From the NCBI RefSeq assembly GCF_003074135.1, contig NZ_PPDK01000001.1, positions 2,418,001 to 2,482,000 on the forward strand: 64,000 bases of DNA. Direction: 5' to 3'. Source of the DNA: Euzebya tangerina. Lineage in GTDB: Bacteria > Actinomycetota > Nitriliruptoria > Euzebyales > Euzebyaceae. Made by a program: the position numbers and the translations under genes. Positions 39,521 to 59,202 of the stretch are shown piece after piece (within the stretch, counting starts at the first letter, position 1; each line of letters opens with the position of its first letter). The notes beneath the pieces are model-generated. The model was not told the origin of the DNA and did no database searches. It saw only the letters and a program-made list of their open reading frames with translations.

Positions 39521-40024
39521 CTAGAGGCGGCCGATGGTGAAGTCGTCGACGATGGATGAGGCCACCGTCAGCGGACGCACGGTCGGCGTCGGCAGCGCCA
39601 TCAACGCGTGCCACAGCAGATCCCGTGGCACGAACGCCGGACCCCGGACCCATGCCAGCGTCGACCGGTCGACCGGCCCCGTGACAACACCGCCCTTGAT
39701 CTCCTTGACCGCGTCGGTCACCGGCGCGTAGAAGGCCGCCACGGTGAACTCCGTCAACTGCTTGCAGCCCGCCGTCAGCATCGGGGTCAGGTCAGGCTCG
39801 ACGATGTGATCCGGCACGAAGGCCACCACATCGGCGGCCTGGGCGTTGTCAACGACCTGTCGCAGCGGCGCGGTGGCGCACTCGAGCGAGCGCGCCTCGC
39901 GGCCGATCTGGTCGTAGGTCAGGAGCAGCACGTCCTCGCCCTCGATGTGGACGACCCGAGGGGACGCCAACTCGACCACGCTGGTGCGCAGCAAAGCTGT
40001 TTGCAGATTGTGGCCGGCGTTCAT
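39521..40024 (-). CDS. Hypothetical protein, 167 residues
   Basis: A soluble protein of mixed alpha/beta composition, with no signal peptide or membrane segment and no family recognised. Codon usage agrees with neighbours. Segments EGEDVLLLTYDQIG and VTGPVDRSTLAWVRGPAFVP look like structured strands. ATG at 40024. It is divergent from the IspD-type gene with only 53 bases between, so the two may share control. Confidence 0.6.
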   Translation of the reverse strand: MNAGHNLQTALLRTSVVELASPRVVHIEGEDVLLLTYDQIGREARSLECATAPLRQVVDNAQAADVVAFVPDHIVEPDLTPMLTAGCKQLTEFTVAAFYAPVTDAVKEIKGGVVTGPVDRSTLAWVRGPAFVPRDLLWHALMALPTPTVRPLTVASSIVDDFTIGRL

Positions 40025-40077: not shown

Positions 40078-40782
40078 TTGAGTGAGGTCGCCGCCGTTGT
40101 CCTGGCCGGGGGCTCTGGCACCCGGTTCTCCGACGACATCAGCAAAGTGTACGTCCCCCTGGGAGAGAGACCTGTCCTGCAGTACGCGCTGGAGACGGTC
40201 GAACTCAGCAGTCATGTCGACCACATCGTAGTGGTCATCCGTGACGTGGACGAAACGCACTGGGCAGATGTGCAAGCCATGGTGCAACCGACCAAGGTGC
40301 GCGCGGCCGTGGTTGGTGGGTCGACCCGCCATGCGAGCGAGTGGGCGGGTCTGCAGGCCATCGTCGAACATGTACCCCAGACGCGGTGGGTCATGCTCCA
40401 CGACGCGGCGCGGCCGTTCCTGACCCTCGACCTGGTCGCCAGGCTGGTCGACACGGCCACGGGGACCGGGGCCGGCGTGGTGCCGGCCCACAGCTTCACC
40501 GACGACATCGTCGACCAGTCCGGGCGGTTGGTCGACGGCTCCAAGTTGGTCAGCGTGCAGACGCCGCAGCTCTTCTCACTGGCGGATCTGACGGCGGCCT
40601 ACAGCGCCGCTGCAGCCGACAACTTCCACGGGGTGGACACGGCCGAGACGGTGCAGGTCTACCGCTCGACCCCCATCCGCCACGTCGCCAGCGACCGCCG
40701 CAACATCAAGATCACCACGCTCGACGACCTCCTGGTGGCCGAGTCGTGGGTGTCGGAGTGGGACCGCGGCCGCTGGGTCTAG
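40078..40782 (+). CDS. ispD: IspD-type cytidylyltransferase (MEP or polyol-phosphate)
   Basis: A 234-residue nucleotidyltransferase of the IspD/TarI family. AAVVLAGGSGTRF at 5-17 with Lys23 forms the CTP-binding loop; HDAARPFL (about 101-108) and VQTPQLFS carry further active-site residues, and FHGVDTAE fits substrate binding. IspD makes CDP-methylerythritol from MEP and CTP; the related TarI uses ribitol 5-phosphate. Starts with TTG at 40078, with AAAG eight bases upstream. It is upstream of, and collinear with, the SorC-PTS-DRL operon (88-base gap), and not beside ispF or carD, the frequent actinobacterial arrangement. MEP is preferred as substrate, also because of the DRL gene downstream. 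Confidence 0.8.
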   Translation: MSEVAAVVLAGGSGTRFSDDISKVYVPLGERPVLQYALETVELSSHVDHIVVVIRDVDETHWADVQAMVQPTKVRAAVVGGSTRHASEWAGLQAIVEHVPQTRWVMLHDAARPFLTLDLVARLVDTATGTGAGVVPAHSFTDDIVDQSGRLVDGSKLVSVQTPQLFSLADLTAAYSAAAADNFHGVDTAETVQVYRSTPIRHVASDRRNIKITTLDDLLVAESWVSEWDRGRWV

Positions 40783-40826: not shown

Positions 40827-40870
40827 AGTCTTACTTGCTCGATGTGCATCCAGGCGATTGAGTGCTGTTC

Positions 40871-41887
40871 ATGAGCCCCTCGCGTGAACCCACGGCTTTG
40901 GCTCGGGCCGCCCAGCGGTACTACCTGGACGGTCTGACCCAGAGCGAGGTGGCCCGCGAGATGCACACCACCCGATCCAACGTCTCACGCATGTTGCAGG
41001 CCGCGCGCGACCAGGGGATCGTTCACTTCCGCGTGCGACACCCACTGGGGCGGCACTCCGCTCTGGAGGCCGAGCTCGGCCGTCTGTTCCCCTCCCTCCG
41101 CGAGGTGTGGGTCCTCTCCGCCGAGCACCAGGCCGATGGCGACAGCGGGATCCACCCGACCGAACCCATCGGCCAGCTCGCCGCCCGCTGGCTCGAGACC
41201 AACCTGCGAAACGGCACCAGCGTGGCCCTGTCCTGGGGACGGACGCTGCGGTCGACCGTCCGCTCCGTCGAGATCGACGGCGCCATGGACGTGGAGGTGT
41301 GCATGATCGGCGGTGACCTGCAGGTGGACCCCGAGGTGTCCGGACACGACGTGGTGCGCGAGTTGGCCGCACGCGTGGGTGGTTCCTACAACTACCTCCA
41401 CGCCCCCGCGCTCTGCTCGAGCCCCGAGATGGTCGCCGAGCTGCGCCGCAACCCGGGCATTGCCCGCGAACTCGAGCGAGCCCAGGTTGCGGACGTCGCA
41501 CTGGTCGGCATCGGCGCCTACGGCACGGGCTTCTCGGCGCAGCTGGTCGACTCGGCGTACCTGACGAGCGGCGAGCGGAACCAACTGGAGGCGCTGCACC
41601 CCGTCGGCGACATCGCCGCCCGCTTCTTCGACGAGAACGGTCAGGTCCTGCACGGACCGCTGGACGACCGGGTCCTGGCGCTCGCGCCGGATGAGATCAC
41701 CCAGATCAACACCGTCGTCGGCGTCGCGGCCGGACACGAGAAGGGCGCTGGCGTTCTGGGTGCACTTCGCGCCGGCTTCCTGGACGTCATCATCTGCGAC
41801 CAGTCGGCGGCCGCTGCCGCCATCCGACTGCACAACCGCTCCGCCCAGGCTGACCAGGACGATCAAGCTGAGGAGGTCGTGGCGTGA
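40871..41887 (+). CDS. SorC/DeoR-family sugar-responsive transcriptional regulator
   Basis: A 338-residue regulator. N-terminal helix-turn-helix: RYYLDGLTQSEVAREMHTTRSNVSRML at residues about 17-43. The remaining about 280 residues are a sugar-phosphate-binding (SorC C-terminal) domain with GTSVALSWGRTLRSTV, DVALVGIGAYG, and GVAAGHEKGAGVLGALRAGFLDVIICD. Family members such as SorC, DeoR and EryD control sugar or polyol catabolic operons in response to phosphorylated intermediates. ATG at 40871 (GTG at 40862 possible). The stop overlaps the gutM start (GTGA), so it is probably the first gene of the operon it controls. Confidence 0.88.
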   Translation: MSPSREPTALARAAQRYYLDGLTQSEVAREMHTTRSNVSRMLQAARDQGIVHFRVRHPLGRHSALEAELGRLFPSLREVWVLSAEHQADGDSGIHPTEPIGQLAARWLETNLRNGTSVALSWGRTLRSTVRSVEIDGAMDVEVCMIGGDLQVDPEVSGHDVVRELAARVGGSYNYLHAPALCSSPEMVAELRRNPGIARELERAQVADVALVGIGAYGTGFSAQLVDSAYLTSGERNQLEALHPVGDIAARFFDENGQVLHGPLDDRVLALAPDEITQINTVVGVAAGHEKGAGVLGALRAGFLDVIICDQSAAAAAIRLHNRSAQADQDDQAEEVVA

Positions 41888-42285
41888 CCAACACCACGGT
41901 GCTGGTGCTCGGTCTGCTGTTCGCCGCTCTGTGGATCATCCAGGCCTGGTTCGCCACCCGCCAGACCAAGGCCTTCATGGCCGAGGTGCGGATCCTCAAG
42001 ACCTGCGGCGTGACGGCCGTCGGATCGCACAGCAAGCGCGGCCTCCGGGCGTTCGTGGCGATGGCCGCAAGCGACGACGACGAGGTGCTGCGGGCCACGA
42101 GGTTCGATGGCGTGAGCCTGTTCGCCCGACCTGAGCGCTACACCGACGTCGAGGGACACCACCTCACCGAGATCGCGACTTGGGACGGCAGCCGGGTGCG
42201 GCTGGCGGCGGCCGACTCCGCCACCCATCTGCTGAACCGGCATACCGACGCCGCCGCGACGGACCCTGCAGCCACCGATACCTGA
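41884..42285 (+). CDS. gutM: GutM-type regulator / PTS-associated membrane protein
   Basis: A 133-residue GutM-family protein. It starts with a hydrophobic segment (about 5-20, VLVLGLLFAALWIIQ) and then AWFATRQTKAFMAEVRILKTCGVTAVGSHS-like GutM residues, with FDGVSLFARPERYTDVEGHHL. E. coli GutM is an activator of the glucitol operon; the membrane segment makes direct DNA binding uncertain. GTG at 41884 overlaps the SorC stop. The following 101-base gap contains a 22-bp palindrome. Confidence 0.8.
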   Translation: MTNTTVLVLGLLFAALWIIQAWFATRQTKAFMAEVRILKTCGVTAVGSHSKRGLRAFVAMAASDDDEVLRATRFDGVSLFARPERYTDVEGHHLTEIATWDGSRVRLAAADSATHLLNRHTDAAATDPAATDT

Positions 42286-42386: not shown

Positions 42387-42953
42387 GTGCTAGGAGCAAT
42401 CGAACAAGTTGCCGAGGTCTTCACCGGCATATTCCAGCAGGGGGCCGAGTTCTTCACAGCCCTGGTGACCGGCATCCTGCCGCTCATCATCGTGCTACTG
42501 ACCGCAGTCAACGCGCTCATCAAGTTCATCGGTATCGAGCGGGTCAACAAGGTCGCCGAGTTGGCCGGCAAGGAGGGCATCCAGTACGCACCACTGCGGT
42601 TCCTGGTCCTCCCGGTGCTCGCGGTGTTCTTCCTGACCAACCCGGCGTGCTACTCGATGGGGACGTTCCTGCCGGAACGCAACAAGCCAGCCTTCTACGA
42701 CTCCGCGGTCAGCTTCGTGCACCCGCCCCTCGGGCTGCTGCCACACGTCAACCCCGGCGAGCTCTTCGTCTGGGCCGGCATCGCCAGCGGTGTGGAGATG
42801 GCGGGCAACGAGCTGACGCCGCTGGCGGTCCGCTATCTGCTCGTCGGACTGATCGTGATCTTCATCCGCGGCCTGGTGACGCAGTTCATCTACGACTTGT
42901 TGGCCTCCCGCGCTGACGACACGTCCAACGACACCGCTGCTGCGGCGGCCTAA
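42387..42953 (+). CDS. srlA: PTS glucitol/sorbitol-type IIC component
   Basis: A 188-residue membrane protein of the Gut IIC family. Four to five hydrophobic helices; PLRFLVLPVLAVFFLTNPACYSMGTFLPE (about 70-98), a conserved core, and HPPLGLLPHVNPGELFVWAGIASGVE (about 112-137) with the substrate-site NPxEL. GTG at 42387 with AAAGGAG at an ideal distance. Together with the split IIBC and IIA genes it imports and phosphorylates a polyol. Confidence 0.9.
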   Translation: MLGAIEQVAEVFTGIFQQGAEFFTALVTGILPLIIVLLTAVNALIKFIGIERVNKVAELAGKEGIQYAPLRFLVLPVLAVFFLTNPACYSMGTFLPERNKPAFYDSAVSFVHPPLGLLPHVNPGELFVWAGIASGVEMAGNELTPLAVRYLLVGLIVIFIRGLVTQFIYDLLASRADDTSNDTAAAAA

Positions 42954-42964
42954 GGAGCCTCACC

Positions 42965-43513
42965 ATGGATTTCATCACCAGAATCGGACGCAGCGTCGGC
43001 GGTGTCGTCGGCACCATCTACCAGGCCGGCCGGGAGACCATCGACGTGGTCATCGGCACGATCCTGCCCTTCATCGCCTTCATCTCCGTGATCATCGGGA
43101 TCATCCTCTACGACTGGAACCCCGAGAACGAGTTGAGCTCGATCGGGGACGCGCTGGCCGACGTGCTGGCCCCGCTGGCCGAGAGCCTCGTCGGGCTCGT
43201 CATCCTCTCCATCATCATCGCCCTGCCGTTCCTGTCACCGGTCCTCGGTCCGGGCGCCGTCATCGCGCAGGTCATCGGCACGCTGCTCGGGACCTCCTTC
43301 GCGAGCGGCGACATCGACCCGCAGTACGCGCTGCCGGCGCTGTTCGCCATCAACCCACAGGTCGGGTGCGACTTCATCCCGGTCGGGCTCGCATTGGGTG
43401 AGGCCGAACCGGAAACAGTGGAACTCGGCGTGCCGGCTGTCCTGTTCAGTCGGCTCATCACCGGTCCGCTGGCTGTGGTGATCGCCTTCGCCTTCAGCGT
43501 CGGTCTCTACTGA
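42965..43513 (+). CDS. srlE: PTS glucitol/sorbitol-type membrane component (C-terminal half of SrlE, split gene)
   Basis: A 182-residue membrane protein matching the C-terminal membrane domain of glucitol IIBC (SrlE): TIYQAGRETIDVVIGTILPF, then ALPFLSPVLGPGAVIAQVIG and ALFAINPQVGCDFIPVGLAL. In E. coli this domain is fused behind IIB in one 319-residue chain; here it is separate and encoded before the IIB domain. ATG at 42965, with AAGGAG upstream. It lies 11 bases after the IIC gene. Confidence 0.88.
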   Translation: MDFITRIGRSVGGVVGTIYQAGRETIDVVIGTILPFIAFISVIIGIILYDWNPENELSSIGDALADVLAPLAESLVGLVILSIIIALPFLSPVLGPGAVIAQVIGTLLGTSFASGDIDPQYALPALFAINPQVGCDFIPVGLALGEAEPETVELGVPAVLFSRLITGPLAVVIAFAFSVGLY

Positions 43514-43590: not shown

Positions 43591-43962
43591 ATGAGCGAGT
43601 ACACCCCGGTCGTCGTCAGCAAGGGCAGTGGAGGGTGGGGTGGTCCGCTGACCATCCAACCCACCGAGGCCAAGAAGTACGTCGTGTCGGTCACCGGCGG
43701 CGGGATCCACCCCGTCGCCCAGCGGATCGCGGACCTGACCGGCGGCGAAGCGTTCGACGGCTTCAAGTCCAGCGTCAAGTTCGATCAGATGGCCTGCGCC
43801 GTCATCGACTGCGGTGGCACCGCCCGGGTCGGGGTGTACCCCATGAAGGGCGTCATGACCGTCGATGTCCACCCCACCTCACCCGCAGGGCCGCTGGCTC
43901 GCTTCATCACCGACAAGATCTTCGTGTCCGGTGTGACACCGGACGACGTGAGCGAGGCATGA
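43591..43962 (+). CDS. PTS glucitol/sorbitol-type IIB domain protein
   Basis: A 123-residue soluble IIB protein matching the N-terminal half of SrlE. KGSGGWGGPL at about 10-19, YVVSVTGGGIHPVAQRIADL at 31-50, and ACAVIDCGGTARVGVYPMKG at 70-89. The Cys in IDCGG is retained; the second Cys of the IDCGGxxRCGxYP motif seen in glucitol enzymes is a Val here. One of these Cys should carry the phosphoryl group; DCGG is the candidate. ATG at 43591 with GAGGAAC upstream. The stop overlaps the IIA start (ATGA). Confidence 0.85.
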   Translation: MSEYTPVVVSKGSGGWGGPLTIQPTEAKKYVVSVTGGGIHPVAQRIADLTGGEAFDGFKSSVKFDQMACAVIDCGGTARVGVYPMKGVMTVDVHPTSPAGPLARFITDKIFVSGVTPDDVSEA

Positions 43963-44363
43963 CACCAGACGGCGCCGCCGTCCGCCTCGACACGACGGTC
44001 ACCGGCGTCGGCGAGATGGCACCGGAGTTCTTTGCGGCGGACATCGTGGTCCTCTTCGGGGAGGACGCGCCCGAGGAGCTCCTGGACGTGGCTGTGGTCC
44101 ACGCCCCGAACGCGCCGGTCTCGAGCATCCAGGTCGGCGACACCATCACGATCTCGGGCGCTGTCGAGACACGGCTCGAAGTGCTGGCCGTCGGAGACGT
44201 CGTCAACGAGAACCTCGCCAACCTCGGCCACCTGGTCATGAAGTGCAACGGCGAAGGAGACGCGGCGTTGCCGGGCGACCTGTGCTGCACCAAGGCCGAG
44301 GTCCCCGTGATCAAGGCCGGCGACAGGATCCTCATCACCGACTCCCCGGGAGCACAGGCGTGA
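43959..44363 (+). CDS. srlB: PTS glucitol/sorbitol-type IIA component
   Basis: A 134-residue IIA-Gut protein. IVVLFGEDAPEELLDVAVVH holds the family block, with His48 the predicted phosphorylation site that receives phosphate from HPr. Then HAPNAPVSSIQVGDTI and NENLANLGHLVMKCNG complete the fold. ATG at 43959 overlaps the IIB stop; a longer frame in the same register is not supported. The stop overlaps the DRL gene start (GTGA). Confidence 0.9.
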   Translation: MTPDGAAVRLDTTVTGVGEMAPEFFAADIVVLFGEDAPEELLDVAVVHAPNAPVSSIQVGDTITISGAVETRLEVLAVGDVVNENLANLGHLVMKCNGEGDAALPGDLCCTKAEVPVIKAGDRILITDSPGAQA

Positions 44364-45622
44364 GCGACCGCCTCGCGCGTCTGACGGCGTTCGCCGACGA
44401 CATCGGTCGACCGGTCCGGATCTGCCTGGTCGGCGCAGGCCAGATGGGTTCTGGGCTGGCAGCACAGCTCGGGCGCATGCCCGGGCTCGAGCTCGCGGCC
44501 GTGGTTGACATCAACGCGGACCGTGCGGCAGCTGCCCTCGGGCTGGCTGGCCGCGACAGCGTTCACGTGGGGGCGGCCGGGGCACCCGCTGCGCTGGCTG
44601 CCGGTCGCCCTGTGGCGCTGGACGACCCCAAGGCCGTTGCGGAGTTGGACATCGACGTCGTCGTCGAGGCCACCGGCGTCCCGCTCGTCGGCGCCGCGGT
44701 GGCCCACAACAGTCTCCTGGCCGGCCAGGACGTCGTGATGCTCAACGTGGAGACCGACGTCACCGTCGGGGTCTACCTGGACGACCTGGCCCGCAGTGCC
44801 GGGCAGGTGTACACCATCGCCGACGGCGACGAACCGGTCTGCGGCAAGGAGCTGGTCGACCTCGCCCACGAGATGGCCTTCGACGTGGTCTGCGCCGGCA
44901 AGGGGAAGAACAACCCGTTCCGACCGTCGGCTGTCGCGGGGGAGTTGCAGGACGAGGCCGACCGCAAGCACATGAACCCCAAGATGTTGGCCAGCTTCGT
45001 CGACGGGTCCAAGACCATGATCGAGATGGCGGCCCTGTCCAATGCCACCGGCCTCCCGGTCGACACCGTCGGCATGCACGGTGTGACGAGTGAGGTGGAC
45101 GGTCTGGCCTCCACCCTGATTCCGGCCGCAGACGGTGGCGTTCTGTCCGAGGCAGGGCGGGTCGACTACGCCTTCGGACCGGCACCCGGCGTCTTCGTCG
45201 TCGTGACCCACCAGGATGAGACCGTCCGGCAGGAGATGAGCTATCTGGGAATGGGTGCGGGCCCGTACTTCACCTTGTACCGGCCGTTCCACCTGGCCAG
45301 CCTGGAAGCGCCTCGCACCATCATCACCACCGTCCTCGACCGCCGGCCGGTCCTACGCCCGGCGGGATGGCACGCCGAGGTCGTGGCGACCGCCAAGCAC
45401 GACATCCCCGCCGGCACCACCCTGCAGGGGATCGGTGGCGACCACGTCCGCGGCGTCACCTACCGGGCCGACCAGGCGACTGAGTTCCTGCCGCTCGGCC
45501 TGGCCGAGAACGGCGTCGTCCAGACCGACATCGGTGCTGGGGACCCGCTGCCACGCAGCGCAGTGGATGTCCCCGCATCCGTCATCTCGACGCTGCGATC
45601 CCTGCAGGAGATGCGGGCCTGA
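44360..45622 (+). CDS. DXR-II/DRL-type NAD(P)-dependent oxidoreductase with SAF domain
   Basis: A 420-residue protein of the homoserine-dehydrogenase-like group with a C-terminal SAF domain (COG4091 type), which includes DRL, the alternative 1-deoxy-D-xylulose 5-phosphate reductoisomerase of Brucella. The nucleotide site RICLVGAGQMGSG is at 20-32. Family-conserved blocks follow: GQDVVMLNVETDVTVG, AGKGKNNPF, FVDGSKTMIEMAALSNATGL, GMHGV, AADGGVLSEAGRVDY and GPYFTLYRPFHLASLE. The SAF part starts AKHDIPAGTTLQGIGGDHV at about 343. GTG at 44360 overlaps the IIA stop, so it is tightly coupled to the PTS. Some family members lack DXR activity, so substrate is not certain. In this operon, MEP-DXP interconversion is the best guess (see findings). 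Confidence 0.82.
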   Translation: MSDRLARLTAFADDIGRPVRICLVGAGQMGSGLAAQLGRMPGLELAAVVDINADRAAAALGLAGRDSVHVGAAGAPAALAAGRPVALDDPKAVAELDIDVVVEATGVPLVGAAVAHNSLLAGQDVVMLNVETDVTVGVYLDDLARSAGQVYTIADGDEPVCGKELVDLAHEMAFDVVCAGKGKNNPFRPSAVAGELQDEADRKHMNPKMLASFVDGSKTMIEMAALSNATGLPVDTVGMHGVTSEVDGLASTLIPAADGGVLSEAGRVDYAFGPAPGVFVVVTHQDETVRQEMSYLGMGAGPYFTLYRPFHLASLEAPRTIITTVLDRRPVLRPAGWHAEVVATAKHDIPAGTTLQGIGGDHVRGVTYRADQATEFLPLGLAENGVVQTDIGAGDPLPRSAVDVPASVISTLRSLQEMRA

Positions 45623-45692: not shown

Positions 45693-46709
45693 GTGGCTGA
45701 CACCACGCCCCGCTTTGCCGATCCATCAGACGCAACCGGCGCCGCGACGCACCTGGAGACCATGTGGACCATCCGGGCCTTCGAGCAGGGCTTGGAGGAG
45801 CTGTTCCAGCGCGGCCTGCTGCACGGCACCATGCACCTGTCCATCGGCCAGGAAGCCGTGGCGACCGGGGTCTGCGGCGCCCTGGCTGAGGGAGACCTGA
45901 TCACCTCGACGCACCGTGGCCACGGCCACTGCCTGGCCCACGGCGCCGACCCTGAACGCATGATGGCCGAGTTGCTGGCCAAGGAGTCCGGCTACTGCAA
46001 GGGCCGTGGCGGCTCGATGCACATCGCCGACGTCAGTCGGGGCAACCTCGGCGCCAACGGGATCGTCGCGGGGTCCATGACCATCGCGGCCGGTGCAGCA
46101 CTCGCGCAGCAGCAGCAGGGCAGCGATGCCGTCGTCGTGTGCTTCTTCGGCGACGGCGCAGCCAACGAGGGCGCCTTCCACGAGGCGCTCAACCTGGCGG
46201 GCATCTGGGACCTGCCGGTGATCTACGTCTGCGAGAACAACCAGTACGGCATGTCGATGGCCACGGCACGAGCCGCAGCGGGCAACGACATCGCCGGTCG
46301 GGGGGCCGCGTACGGCCTGCCGGGGACGAAGGTCAACGGCAACGACATCCTGGCTGTACGCGAGGCGACCCTCGAGGCGGCGGCGCGGGCCCGAGCAGGG
46401 GAGGGGGCCAGCCTCATCGAGGCGGTCACCTATCGCTACCGGGGGCACTCGAAGTCGGATCGAAACCTCTACCGCACGCGGGAGGAGATCACCGAGTGGC
46501 GCGACGAGCGGGATCCGATCGACGCCTTCACCCGCTACTGCACCGAGCACGAGGTGCTCAGCGAGCAGGAGATCACCGCGGCCAGTCAGCGCGGCAAGGA
46601 CACCATCAAAGAGGCGGTGGCTGGTGCGATGACCGGTGCCGAACCCGATCCGACCGAGCTGGCGGGCGCGGCCTACGCCGCCAACCCTGGCATGGAGGGT
46701 GCAGCGTGA
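45693..46709 (+). CDS. Thiamine-dependent dehydrogenase E1 alpha (acetoin/pyruvate dehydrogenase type)
   Basis: A 338-residue E1-alpha of the alpha2beta2 type. The thiamine diphosphate motif GDGAANEGAFHEALNLAG starts at 153 and ends with NN at 182-183. GTMHLSIGQEAVATG and THRGHGHCLAHGAD are substrate and cofactor regions; YRYRGHSKSD matches the phosphorylation-loop region of E1-alpha enzymes, close to AcoA of acetoin dehydrogenase as well as PdhA. GTG at 45693 with AAGGAGAC upstream. Starts 70 bases after the DRL gene; the E1-beta gene overlaps its stop. Confidence 0.9.
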   Translation: MADTTPRFADPSDATGAATHLETMWTIRAFEQGLEELFQRGLLHGTMHLSIGQEAVATGVCGALAEGDLITSTHRGHGHCLAHGADPERMMAELLAKESGYCKGRGGSMHIADVSRGNLGANGIVAGSMTIAAGAALAQQQQGSDAVVVCFFGDGAANEGAFHEALNLAGIWDLPVIYVCENNQYGMSMATARAAAGNDIAGRGAAYGLPGTKVNGNDILAVREATLEAAARARAGEGASLIEAVTYRYRGHSKSDRNLYRTREEITEWRDERDPIDAFTRYCTEHEVLSEQEITAASQRGKDTIKEAVAGAMTGAEPDPTELAGAAYAANPGMEGAA

Positions 46710-47698
46710 CCCGGACGACGTACGCCAAGGCGCTTGCGGAGGCCTTCCGCGTCGCGCTTGCTGAGGACGAGCGGGTCTTCATGGCCGGGGAGGACATCGG
46801 CATCTACGGCGGCGCATTCGGGGTCACCGATGGCCTGCTGGACGAGTTCGGGCCCAAGCGGATCCTGGACACGCCAATCTCGGAGGAGGTCATCGCCGGC
46901 TTGGCCGTCGGTGCCGCCATCGTCGGGCAGCGCCCGATCGTGGAGATGCAGTTCAGCGACTTCATCGTCAACGCCATGGACCCGATCGTGAACCAGGCGG
47001 CCAAGCTGCACTTCATGTATGGCGGCCAGGTCTCGGTTCCCATGATCATCCGAGGTCCTGGTGGCGGCGGAACGGGTGCGGCAGCTCAGCACAGCCAGTC
47101 GCTGGAAGCCTGGTTCGCCCACGTCCCCGGCCTGAAGGTCGTCACCCCGGCCACAGCGCAGGACGTCCACGACCTGCTGCTGGCCTCGCTGCTCGATCCC
47201 GATCCCGTCGTGTTCCTCGAGCACAAGCTGCTGTACAAGGTCGAGGAGGACGTCGAGTTCCGATCCTCGATCGCCGACACACCGGCACAGCTGGGCCAGG
47301 CCCTGGTCCGTCGGGAGGGAGGCGACTGCTCGATCGTCGCCTACTCGATCATGGTGCCCCGGGCGCTCGAGGCCGCCGAGGTCCTAGCCGAGGAGGGCAT
47401 CGACGTCGAGGTGGTCGACCTGCGGACCCTCCGGCCCATGGACACCACGACCATCCGGTCGTCGGTCAAGAAGACCGGACGGCTGGTGACGGCGCAGGAG
47501 GCCCCGGTCCCCGTGAGCATCGGCGCCGAGGTGGCGGCCTGTGTCGCCGGCTCCGACGCCCTGGACTACCTGCTCGCACCCATCCAACGGGTCGGGTCGC
47601 TGGATGTCCCGATGCCCTACGCCAAGACACTCGAGACCGCGACGATCCCCCAGACCGGTGACATCGTCGATGCCGCCCGCCGGGTCATGAAGGACTAG
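46706..47698 (+). CDS. Thiamine-dependent dehydrogenase E1 beta
   Basis: A 330-residue E1-beta. VFMAGEDIGIYGGAFGVTDG with RILDTPISEEVIAGLAVGAA (conserved Glu of the thiamine site), VPMIIRGPGGGGTGAAAQHS, and LRPMDTTTIRSSVKKTGRLV are standard. GTG at 46706 overlaps the E1-alpha stop (GTGA), implying equal amounts. It completes the active-site heterotetramer that decarboxylates or cleaves the substrate and passes an acyl (or hydroxyethyl) group to lipoyl E2. Confidence 0.92.
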   Translation: MTRTTYAKALAEAFRVALAEDERVFMAGEDIGIYGGAFGVTDGLLDEFGPKRILDTPISEEVIAGLAVGAAIVGQRPIVEMQFSDFIVNAMDPIVNQAAKLHFMYGGQVSVPMIIRGPGGGGTGAAAQHSQSLEAWFAHVPGLKVVTPATAQDVHDLLLASLLDPDPVVFLEHKLLYKVEEDVEFRSSIADTPAQLGQALVRREGGDCSIVAYSIMVPRALEAAEVLAEEGIDVEVVDLRTLRPMDTTTIRSSVKKTGRLVTAQEAPVPVSIGAEVAACVAGSDALDYLLAPIQRVGSLDVPMPYAKTLETATIPQTGDIVDAARRVMKD

Positions 47699-48955
47699 GT
47701 GACCACGCCCATGAGCACCCTGACTGTGCGGCTGTCGGCCCTCACGACGGACATGACCGACGGCGAGTTGCTGAAGTGGATCGTGGCCGCCGGCGACGAG
47801 GTCACCGAGGGCGACCCCATCGCGGAGTTCACCACCGACAAGGTCGACACCGAACTCGAGAGCCCCTACACCGGCACCGTCGTCGAGCTGCTGGTCGAGG
47901 AGTCGGCCATCGTCAACGTCGGCGACGCCATCGCCACCATCCAGAGCGACGAGGACGACCTGCTCGGCGGCCTGGACCTCGGTGACGCAGAGGCCCCGGA
48001 GTCCCCGGAGGAGCCAGCCCAGGCGGATCAGCCAGATGACGATGCCTCCTCCGCCACTGACACCAGCGGGCTGGCCCTGATCCCGGCCCCGCCGCCCGTC
48101 CGCAAGCGCGCCAGGCGTGAGGGCATCGACCTCGGCGACGTCAACCCCACGGGCAGCCGCGGCCAGGTCACCCACGCCGACCTGGACGCCTACCAGGCCA
48201 CCTCGTCGGCGGGTGGCAGCAGCTCGCCCGACGAGCAGGCGACGTCCCAGGAAAGCCCGGCCCAACCGACCGCGACCACACCCTCGGCCGCGATGCCGCA
48301 GGCGGAGGCAGACTCCCGGGACCAGGCCAGACGACGACGGGTCCGTGCCGCCACCGCCGCCTCGACCTCGCGATCACAGGCCATCCCGCAGTTCACGCTG
48401 TTTCGCAGTGCCGACGTCACCGAGACGGCCGGGCGCCGGAGCGGCATCGGCTGGACCACCATCCTGGCGCGGAGCTACGCCGCGATGCTGTGGCGCCACC
48501 CCGAGCTGAACGCCATCTGGGACGAGGAGCGCGGTGTCGTGGCCCCGCTCGACGAGGTGCGGATCGGGCTCGCCGTCGACACGCCGACCGGACTCGTGGT
48601 CGTAGCCTTGGACGACCCCGACAAGCAGGGCCCGGCCTCGGCGGACGCCGACCTGCGCGCCGCGGCCGAGCGGGCCCGCGCCGGCGACATCCGTCGCGAG
48701 GACCTGGAGGGGGTGTCGGCCACCATCTCGAACCTCGGCGGGTGGAACGTGGAGCGCTTCACCGCGCTCCTGGTCCCACCCCAGGCCAGCATCCTCTCCG
48801 TCGGCGCCATCGCTGAGCAGCCATCGGTCGTGGACGGCCGGGTCAAGCCGCGTCTGAAGATGGAGCTCGGCCTGACGGTGGACCACCGAGTTGCGGACGG
48901 AGCCGACGCCGCCCGCGCACTGCAGACCCTGATCGAGATCCTGGAGGACGCATGA
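47699..48955 (+). CDS. Dihydrolipoamide acyltransferase E2 of the E1-E2 complex
   Basis: A 418-residue E2. Lipoyl domain at about 5-80 with the lipoylated Lys in TTDKVDTELESP; a hinge rich in A, P, S, D and E; peripheral-subunit-binding domain at about 123-165 (VRKRARREGIDLGDVNPTGS); second hinge; and CoA acyltransferase catalytic domain from about 205, ending with the active-site motif VDHRVADGADAARAL. One lipoyl domain only. GTG at 47699 follows directly after the E1-beta stop; ATG at 47711 is an alternative. No E3 gene is in the window, so dihydrolipoamide dehydrogenase must come from elsewhere. The stop overlaps the HPr ATG. Confidence 0.9.
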   Translation: MTTPMSTLTVRLSALTTDMTDGELLKWIVAAGDEVTEGDPIAEFTTDKVDTELESPYTGTVVELLVEESAIVNVGDAIATIQSDEDDLLGGLDLGDAEAPESPEEPAQADQPDDDASSATDTSGLALIPAPPPVRKRARREGIDLGDVNPTGSRGQVTHADLDAYQATSSAGGSSSPDEQATSQESPAQPTATTPSAAMPQAEADSRDQARRRRVRAATAASTSRSQAIPQFTLFRSADVTETAGRRSGIGWTTILARSYAAMLWRHPELNAIWDEERGVVAPLDEVRIGLAVDTPTGLVVVALDDPDKQGPASADADLRAAAERARAGDIRREDLEGVSATISNLGGWNVERFTALLVPPQASILSVGAIAEQPSVVDGRVKPRLKMELGLTVDHRVADGADAARALQTLIEILEDA

Positions 48956-49212
48956 TCGCTCGAGCCGAGATGACCCTGACCAACGAGGTCGGCCTGCACG
49001 CCCGCCCGGCTGCTGCGTTCGTGAAGACCGCGTCGACCTTCGCCGCCGACATCACGATCACCAACGGAGACCGGTCGGCCGACGCCAAGTCGATGCTGGG
49101 TGTCTTGAAGTTGGAGGCGACGCAGGGGTCGACGATCGTCCTCGAGGCCGACGGGGAGGACGCGCAGGACGCCATCGATGCCCTGATCACCCAACTGGAG
49201 AGCGCCCACTGA
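48952..49212 (+). CDS. ptsH: Phosphocarrier protein HPr
   Basis: An 86-residue HPr. The phosphorylated His16 is in NEVGLHARPAA, and the region around Ser47 (SADAKSMLGVL) resembles the HPr-kinase site of Gram-positive bacteria. It overlaps the E2 stop by four bases (ATGA), placing a general PTS phosphocarrier at the end of a substrate-specific operon. Its phosphate donor, Enzyme I, is encoded at 57487-59202. Confidence 0.95.
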   Translation: MIARAEMTLTNEVGLHARPAAAFVKTASTFAADITITNGDRSADAKSMLGVLKLEATQGSTIVLEADGEDAQDAIDALITQLESAH

Positions 49213-57486: not shown

Positions 57487-59202
57487 CTAGGCCACCAGGT
57501 CACCCAGCGCGTGGGCCACCAGGCTGCGCACCGCCGCAGCGCTCGGGGCGGCCAGCGCCTCGGTGACCAGCGGATCGAGGATCTCGGGGTCGAGTCCGTC
57601 GACCAGCATCCGGATGGCGTCCACCTGGATCGGTGGGACACTGAGCTCGTGGGCCCCCATGCCGACGAGGAGGGCCGCGGGGATCGGATCGGCCGCCGCG
57701 CCGCCGCACACTCCCGCGGGGATGCCGGCGTCACGGGCCGCCCGGATCGTCAGGTCGCACAGCGCCAGCACCGGCGGAGCGGCCGGGTCGTGATAGGCCG
57801 ACAACGCCGCCGCCCCCCGGTCAGCCGCCGCGGTGTACTGCGTCAGATCGTTGGTCCCGATGGAGAAGAAGTCCACCACCCGCGCGAGGTGCGGCGCCAT
57901 CAGGGCGGCGGCCGGGGTCTCGATCATGATGCCGACCGGGGGGACGTCTGCCCCCAGCTCGGCGGCGCGCAGGTCGATGACCTCCCTGGCCCGCCGCACG
58001 TCGTCCACGGCGGTCACCATCGGCAACATGATCTGCAGTGGCCCGTCGGCGGCAGCCACCAGGAGGGCGTCGATCTGGGGGGAGAACAGCTCGGGGTGGG
58101 CCAGGCACAGCCGCAGGCCTCGGACCCCGAGGTAGGGGTTCTCCTCATCGGGGAGCCTCATCCAGGGCACGAACTTGTCACCGCCGATGTCCAGGGTTCG
58201 GACGATGACCGGATCGGTGAACGCGACGGCGGCCGCGCGGTAGGCCTCCGCCTGCTGGGACACCCGGGGCGCCTGCGGGGCGTCCAGGAACAGGAACTCG
58301 CTGCGGTACAGCCCGATGCCGTCCGCCCGGGCGGCCGTCGCGTTGGCCAGTTCCTCGGAGTTGCCGATGTTGGCCGCCACCAGGACCCGGTGCCCGTCGT
58401 AGTGGACCGGCTGCCCGGCCAGCTCAGCAGCCGCCTCGGCCCGGGTGCGGAGTCGGGCCTGCTCCTGCTCGGCCTCCAGCAACTGGCCGGCGGAGGGGGC
58501 CACGGTCACCTGCCCCGAGCCGCCATCGGCGATGACGGTGACCACCTCGTCCTGGCTCGCGAGCTGCTGGATCGCCGCGACCGCACCCTCGGCGCCCACG
58601 ACCGCTGGGATGCCCAGGGACCGCGCGACGATCGCGGTGTGGGAGGTGACGCCCCCGCCCTCCACGACCAGCGCACGGACCCGGTCGAGTTCGATCTGCG
58701 CGGTGTCGGCCGGACTGAGGTCGGTGGCCACCACCACCGATCCCGGTGGTACCTCGGGGGTCGCCAACTCACCGCCGGCGGTGACGGTGGCCAGATCCGC
58801 GACGACGGCCCTCACATCCTCCGCGCGCTGTGCCAGGTACTCATCGCCCAGGGAGGCCAGCATGTCGGCCTGCTCGTTCCCGGCGGAGCGGACGGCGGCT
58901 GGCAGCGGCTGATCCGCCGCGGCGGCGGTGATCGCCCGGACCAGTTCCGGGTCCGCGACGAGCATGGCGTACGTTCCGAGGACCTCTGCCTCATCGGTCC
59001 GGTCCCGGGCGGAGGCGCGGTCTGCCAGATCGGTGTAGTGCGCCGCGGCCCGCTCCACAGCCTCCTCCAGACTGATCTCCGCCGACGTCTCCTCCGCGGT
59101 GCGGTCCGACCCGCCACCGCGGAGGACGAAGGCCGTGCCGACCCCGATGCCGGGGGCGGCGGCGATGCCGGCGATGACGTTGGCAGGTGCTGAGTCGGTC
59201 AT
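57487..59202 (-). CDS. ptsI: PTS Enzyme I (phosphoenolpyruvate-protein phosphotransferase)
   Basis: A 571-residue Enzyme I, which takes phosphate from PEP and gives it to HPr. Active-site His188 is in GGGVTSHTAIVARSLGIPAV; the PEP-binding C-terminal barrel has RSEFLFLD (about 270), GVRGLRLCLAHPELF, and the catalytic Cys in ALCDLTIRAARDAGIPAGVC then GGAAADP. ATG at 59202. It ends 11 bases before the stop of the response regulator and is not within the PTS operon 8 kb upstream, but no other Enzyme I is seen in the window. Confidence 0.95.
   Translation of the reverse strand: MTDSAPANVIAGIAAAPGIGVGTAFVLRGGGSDRTAEETSAEISLEEAVERAAAHYTDLADRASARDRTDEAEVLGTYAMLVADPELVRAITAAAADQPLPAAVRSAGNEQADMLASLGDEYLAQRAEDVRAVVADLATVTAGGELATPEVPPGSVVVATDLSPADTAQIELDRVRALVVEGGGVTSHTAIVARSLGIPAVVGAEGAVAAIQQLASQDEVVTVIADGGSGQVTVAPSAGQLLEAEQEQARLRTRAEAAAELAGQPVHYDGHRVLVAANIGNSEELANATAARADGIGLYRSEFLFLDAPQAPRVSQQAEAYRAAAVAFTDPVIVRTLDIGGDKFVPWMRLPDEENPYLGVRGLRLCLAHPELFSPQIDALLVAAADGPLQIMLPMVTAVDDVRRAREVIDLRAAELGADVPPVGIMIETPAAALMAPHLARVVDFFSIGTNDLTQYTAAADRGAAALSAYHDPAAPPVLALCDLTIRAARDAGIPAGVCGGAAADPIPAALLVGMGAHELSVPPIQVDAIRMLVDGLDPEILDPLVTEALAAPSAAAVRSLVAHALGDLVA

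Follow-up and report, generated by a model that had tools for sequence, protein, structure and literature searches.

A DXR-II-type oxidoreductase in a glucitol-type PTS operon of Euzebya tangerina and its possible role in the catabolism of a branched tetritol

The window, a stretch of 64,000 nucleotides from the Euzebya tangerina genome, contains an operon in which a DXR-II-type oxidoreductase (DRL) is encoded between a glucitol-family phosphotransferase system (PTS) and an E1/E2 complex. This operon probably serves to break down a C-methyl-branched tetritol, with 2-C-methyl-D-erythritol (ME) as the most likely substrate. The proposal builds on features that were seen directly – the genes present and their families, signature residues, a conserved linkage, and the absence of dxr from four of the five closest relatives. 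A broader proposal, that the DXR-II family is catabolic both in origin and in its main role, breaking down 2-C-methyl-D-erythritol phosphate into acetyl-CoA and glyceraldehyde-3-phosphate, is more tentative, and we give it slightly less than an even chance.

DXR-II has been treated as a biosynthetic enzyme, and its patchy distribution is unexplained. Its bearers include bacteria with the mevalonate pathway alone and two with neither pathway, and they share no unifying trait except a weak enrichment of animal pathogens (PMC3847144); a 2026 review still calls the distribution hard to explain (PMC13001223). Among the papers searched, none was found to describe ME catabolism or a catabolic role for DXR-II. 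A catabolic role, if true, would account for the distribution. It would also reveal an unrecognised pathway for eating ME through an enzyme known only for isoprenoid building blocks, show a route for imported ME into isoprenoid synthesis, and identify bacteria capable of using 2-methyltetrols, compounds that arise widely in air from isoprene oxidation.

The operon and its genes

The genes of the operon run in the order SorC-type regulator, GutM, IIC, split IIBC, IIA, DRL, E1-alpha, E1-beta, E2 and HPr, with IspD directly before them on the same strand and all neighbours from IspD to HPr overlapping or less than 110 bp apart (Table 1). The operon is larger than was described in the first-pass annotation. 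The DRL ORF spans 420 codons from a GTG start to a TGA stop, has a third-codon-position GC of 0.87 and is a real gene. It had been noted that the start of this gene overlaps the stop of the IIA gene, and this is correct: the GTG at 44360–44362 and the IIA TGA at 44361–44363 share the sequence GTGA.

Table 1. Features of the operon and associated genes in the window
Feature	Coordinates	Strand	Evidence or remark
Short IspD-like partner	39521–40024	-	beside IspD
IspD-family cytidylyltransferase	40078–40782	+	PF01128 4.5e-38; only strong match in genome
SorC/DeoR-type sugar-binding transcriptional regulator	40862–41887	+	PF04198 1.3e-53
GutM-like protein	41884–42285	+	PF06923 3.1e-14
Glucitol-family PTS IIC (SrlA-like)	42387–42953	+	PF03608 5.6e-68; NF049923 above cut-off
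Glucitol-family PTS, C-terminal half of IIBC (SrlE-C)	42965–43513	+	PF07663 8.3e-46
Glucitol-family PTS, N-terminal IIB half (SrlE-N)	43591–43962	+	PF03612 2.3e-54
Glucitol-family PTS IIA (SrlB-like, PTSIIA_gutA)	43959–44363	+	PF03829 2.5e-28
DXR-II-type oxidoreductase (DRL)	44360–45622	+	PF21135 1.7e-59; Brucella 3upl 1e-86; residues; tree
E1-alpha, acetoin-dehydrogenase-like TPP enzyme	45693–46709	+	PF00676 4.2e-89; GTG start
E1-beta	46706–47698	+	PF02779, PF02780; NF006667 above cut-off
E2 acyltransferase (lipoyl, E3-binding, catalytic domains)	47699–48955	+	PF00364, PF02817, PF00198
HPr phosphocarrier	48952–49212	+	TIGR01003 above cut-off; PF00381 2.8e-29
PTS enzyme I	57487–59202	-	PF02896 7.9e-89, PF00391, PF05524; 8 kb downstream

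All the Gut-family PTS domains (IIC, IIBC and IIA) are present, and the operon shares all PTS subunits and GutM with the glucitol/sorbitol operon (srlA-srlE-srlB, gutM). It differs from the srl operon in that IIBC is divided between two genes, sorbitol-phosphate dehydrogenase is lacking, and the PTS genes are followed by those for DRL, E1, E2 and HPr. An ordinary operon for sorbitol or another linear polyol, with DRL acting as an unrelated dehydrogenase, would be in keeping with the IIC, which the glucitol/sorbitol equivalog model scores above its cut-off. We consider this improbable, as no sorbitol-6-phosphate dehydrogenase was found among the operon genes, and DRL and E1 remain together in other organisms where the PTS is replaced.

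Family membership of the DRL protein

The DRL protein has the Pfam domains DRL_cat, NAD_binding_3 and SAF, and phmmer aligned residues 5–417 with the Brucella abortus DXR-II (3upl and 3upy; E ~1e-86), which bears out the first-pass assignment to the SAF family as a DXR-II-like protein. The named contigs with the closest DRL homologues carry the label Nitriliruptoraceae or Nitriliruptorales, apart from one whose label goes no further than Actinomycetota.

Positions reported for substrate binding and for the dimer cavity (PMC3847144) were mapped onto an alignment of DRL proteins. The window DRL keeps K191, K193 and T229, which contact fosmidomycin or substrate, as well as R320 and two other positions typical of DXR-II, G121 and H250. 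F178, Y322 and V351 of the Brucella enzyme are replaced by L, F and H. These three replacements could be read as the mark of a DRL clade that has drifted from DXP/MEP specificity, with the same pathway logic serving another branched polyol (e.g. 2-C-methyl-threitol or an apiitol-type compound), and the substrates of glucitol-type transporters are not readable from sequence. This alternative is unlikely, though less so than the sorbitol operon – K191, K193, T229 and R320 are retained, close DRL relatives appear to replace dxr (see below), and a complex of the acetoin dehydrogenase type would fit a methyl-ketone product such as DXP.

The homologous DLO1 and DLO2 oxidoreductases have the same domains as the window DRL. 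Unlike the DXR-II-type proteins, they lack the E168/K193/T229 signature, a combination absent from all 12 DLO-like homologues compared, and T229 itself was absent from all 12. In a maximum-likelihood tree the DXR-II-type and DLO-like proteins were split with moderate support (84/75), and the window DRL fell on the DXR-II side, apart from DLO1 and DLO2. By residues and tree, the window DRL is classed as a genuine DXR-II-type protein and not a member of the related DLO families. The Brucella DXR-II was nested in the tree among rhizobial homologues that are linked to operons. While the two proteins share domains, full-length homology and substrate-binding residues, the Brucella enzyme has been described as a biosynthetic substitute for DXR, and the window DRL is encoded in an operon with a transporter and E1/E2, in a host that has DXR-I.

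Two homologues of the DLO type, in Deinococcus aetherius and Persicobacter, are encoded in surface-polysaccharide clusters, beside genes of the CDP-glucose pathway.

Isoprenoid genes in the host and its relatives

The host genome (4.78 Mb, 98% complete) was found to encode DXR-I (dxr), DXS (dxs), IspD and IspG. Since both dxr and dxs are present, isoprenoid biosynthesis does not require DRL, which is redundant in this respect.

DXR-I was found in 60 of the 66 genomes of the class. Of the six without it, two are incomplete (74% and 64%), and the other four (G031–G034) make up the whole of one genus. The DRL proteins of these four are 59–65% identical to the window DRL and make up four of its five closest relatives; ispG was found in all four of the genomes and dxs in three. 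The absence of dxr from four of the five closest relatives suggests that the DRL proteins of the window clade interconvert DXP and MEP. In two of the four (loci L025 and L026), DRL is in the same PTS/E1 operon, and in the other two (L027 and L028) it is found with IspD, with no PTS or E1 nearby. The fifth relative, G048, which is the single closest (66%), keeps DXR-I, and this counts against the catabolic reading.

No recognisable DXS was found in several of the genomes that carry DRL. This absence was considered as a sign of ME salvage and then dropped as specific evidence, because 24 of the 66 class genomes (e.g. G022, G023, G003, G025, G030) had no PF13292 match at E 1e-20 regardless of DRL, most of them with DXR-I and two of them DXR-I-bearing genomes of the same genus, and because DXS-less species are many (181 in PMC10663253).

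In loci of Ca. Actinomarina (L051, L053, L096 and others), the genes for Enzyme I, IspD and DRL are consecutive, and in L051 a mannitol-type PTS is found further on. No DXR-I, DXS, glucitol PTS or E1 was found in these loci and genomes.

The IspD of the window is the only full-length IspD in the genome. It was considered as a member of the catabolic unit, but this was weakened by a genome of the same genus (G024), in which the fadJ-IspD arrangement is present without the operon, so the window IspD is probably a housekeeping protein. In several Pseudonocardiaceae loci IspD is found downstream of E2. Equivalents of E. coli T140, K142 and R157 are missing from many IspD proteins that are linked to DRL or of the Nitriliruptoria type, and K, D and R are kept at these positions in a short IspD-like protein encoded near them. 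Among 15 such short partners, the only invariant columns of the alignment were K, D, R and P. Such a pair of IspD and short partner is present in the window (40078–40782 and 39521–40024) and also occurs at L024, L050, L052, L056, L066, L067, L069, L073, L076, L077, L084, L162, L165 and L175. IspD makes contacts across its dimer. T140 contacts the substrate in the E. coli enzyme (PMC3111433). It is possible, judging from these residues, that IspD and its short partner form a heterodimeric IspD.

Conserved linkage and the proposed pathway

Gene linkage was tallied at 92 loci with the DXR-II signature (80 from a scan of a genome collection, the window, and 11 plasmid loci) and at 12 DLO-like loci for comparison. 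Because the 80 genome loci were selected by similarity to the window DRL, the figures are skewed to Actinobacteria and are counts, not independent events: E1-alpha and E1-beta are near DRL in 68 of the 92 DXR-II-type loci, the glucitol PTS is present in 64, and E1-alpha or the PTS in 73, while neither E1-alpha/E1-beta nor the PTS was found in any of the 12 DLO loci. IspD matches were found in 52 of the 92 and an IspD-like match in one of the 12.

The phosphorylating step varies between phyla, while DRL and usually E1 stay. The PTS is found at DRL loci of Actinobacteria, Listeria, Rhizobium and Pseudoroseomonas, with enzyme I added to the glucitol PTS in the plasmid loci of the latter two. Plasmid loci of Agrobacterium and S. 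meliloti have an ABC transporter and sugar kinase together with E3 and lipA; that of Shinella carries E3; and that of Priestia has an MFS transporter, FGGY kinase, E1-beta, E2 and E3. In Aerophobetes and Chloroflexi an FGGY kinase adjoins DRL. Two observations count against the catabolic reading: some Actinobacteria have DRL with IspD and no PTS or E1 nearby, and in Listeria, where DRL is found with the PTS, no E1 was found in the DNA stretch viewed.

The E1-alpha proteins linked to DRL in Actinobacteria and Rhizobiales are 54–66% identical to that of the window, and those in Aerophobetes and Chloroflexi 46–50%, versus 32–46% for the four E1-alpha paralogues of the window genome itself. In a spread sample of plasmid matches, the identity was 46% to Thermus AcoA, 27–41% to five named PdhA proteins and 31% to BkdA; a Sphingobium protein named acetoin oxidoreductase alpha was 36% identical. 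By these identities the complex is at most acetoin-dehydrogenase-like. It shares the E1-alpha/E1-beta/lipoyl-E2 architecture of the acetoin dehydrogenase complex (AcoA, AcoB, E2), and its E1-alpha is nearer the named AcoA than the named PdhA or BkdA. Unlike that complex, it is linked to DRL and a supply of phospho-polyol, and its cleavage of an acyloin is putative.

In the proposed pathway, a polyol (most likely ME) would be imported and phosphorylated by the PTS to give MEP, which DRL, assumed to be reversible, would oxidise to DXP in the reverse of its biosynthetic direction. DXP is an acyloin with a methyl ketone, and acetoin is cleaved by acetoin dehydrogenase. By analogy, the E1/E2 pair and an E3 presumably encoded at another site would convert DXP to glyceraldehyde-3-phosphate and acetyl-CoA. 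Pyruvate and acetoin dehydrogenase form 1-deoxyketoses (cited in PMC3424233). The adjoining IspD could also send imported MEP into isoprenoids. Against this, the glucitol PTS family owes its name to sorbitol, and we know of no documented case of ME transport. A catabolic or salvage use had been suggested in the first-pass annotation from the coupling to a transporter. The three checks proposed there (tree, residues and isoprenoid genes of the host) did not refute this idea, and the linkage to E1/E2 genes and the exchange of the PTS for kinases elsewhere strengthen it, with the reaction and substrate still putative.

The E1 complex might instead serve DXP synthesis, with the PTS incidental. In E. 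coli, dxs can be bypassed by mutants in aceE (PMC3424233), and both the DRL-bearing genomes without recognisable DXS and the frequent adjacency of IspD to DRL would agree with such a role. We give it little credence, since both DXS and DXR-I are encoded in the host genome, and PF13292 is lacking at the cut-off in 24 of the 66 class genomes regardless of DRL. The full lipoyl, E3-binding and catalytic domains of E2 are not needed to make DXP, nor are the E3 and, in some cases, lipA that rhizobial operons add, and import or kinase genes recur across several phyla.

A cluster on a C. difficile plasmid (36533–49435) encodes a SorC regulator, E1-alpha, E1-beta, E2, E3, an MFS transporter and glycoside hydrolases. 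DRL was not found in this stretch, and from its gene content the cluster perhaps encodes another acyloin pathway.
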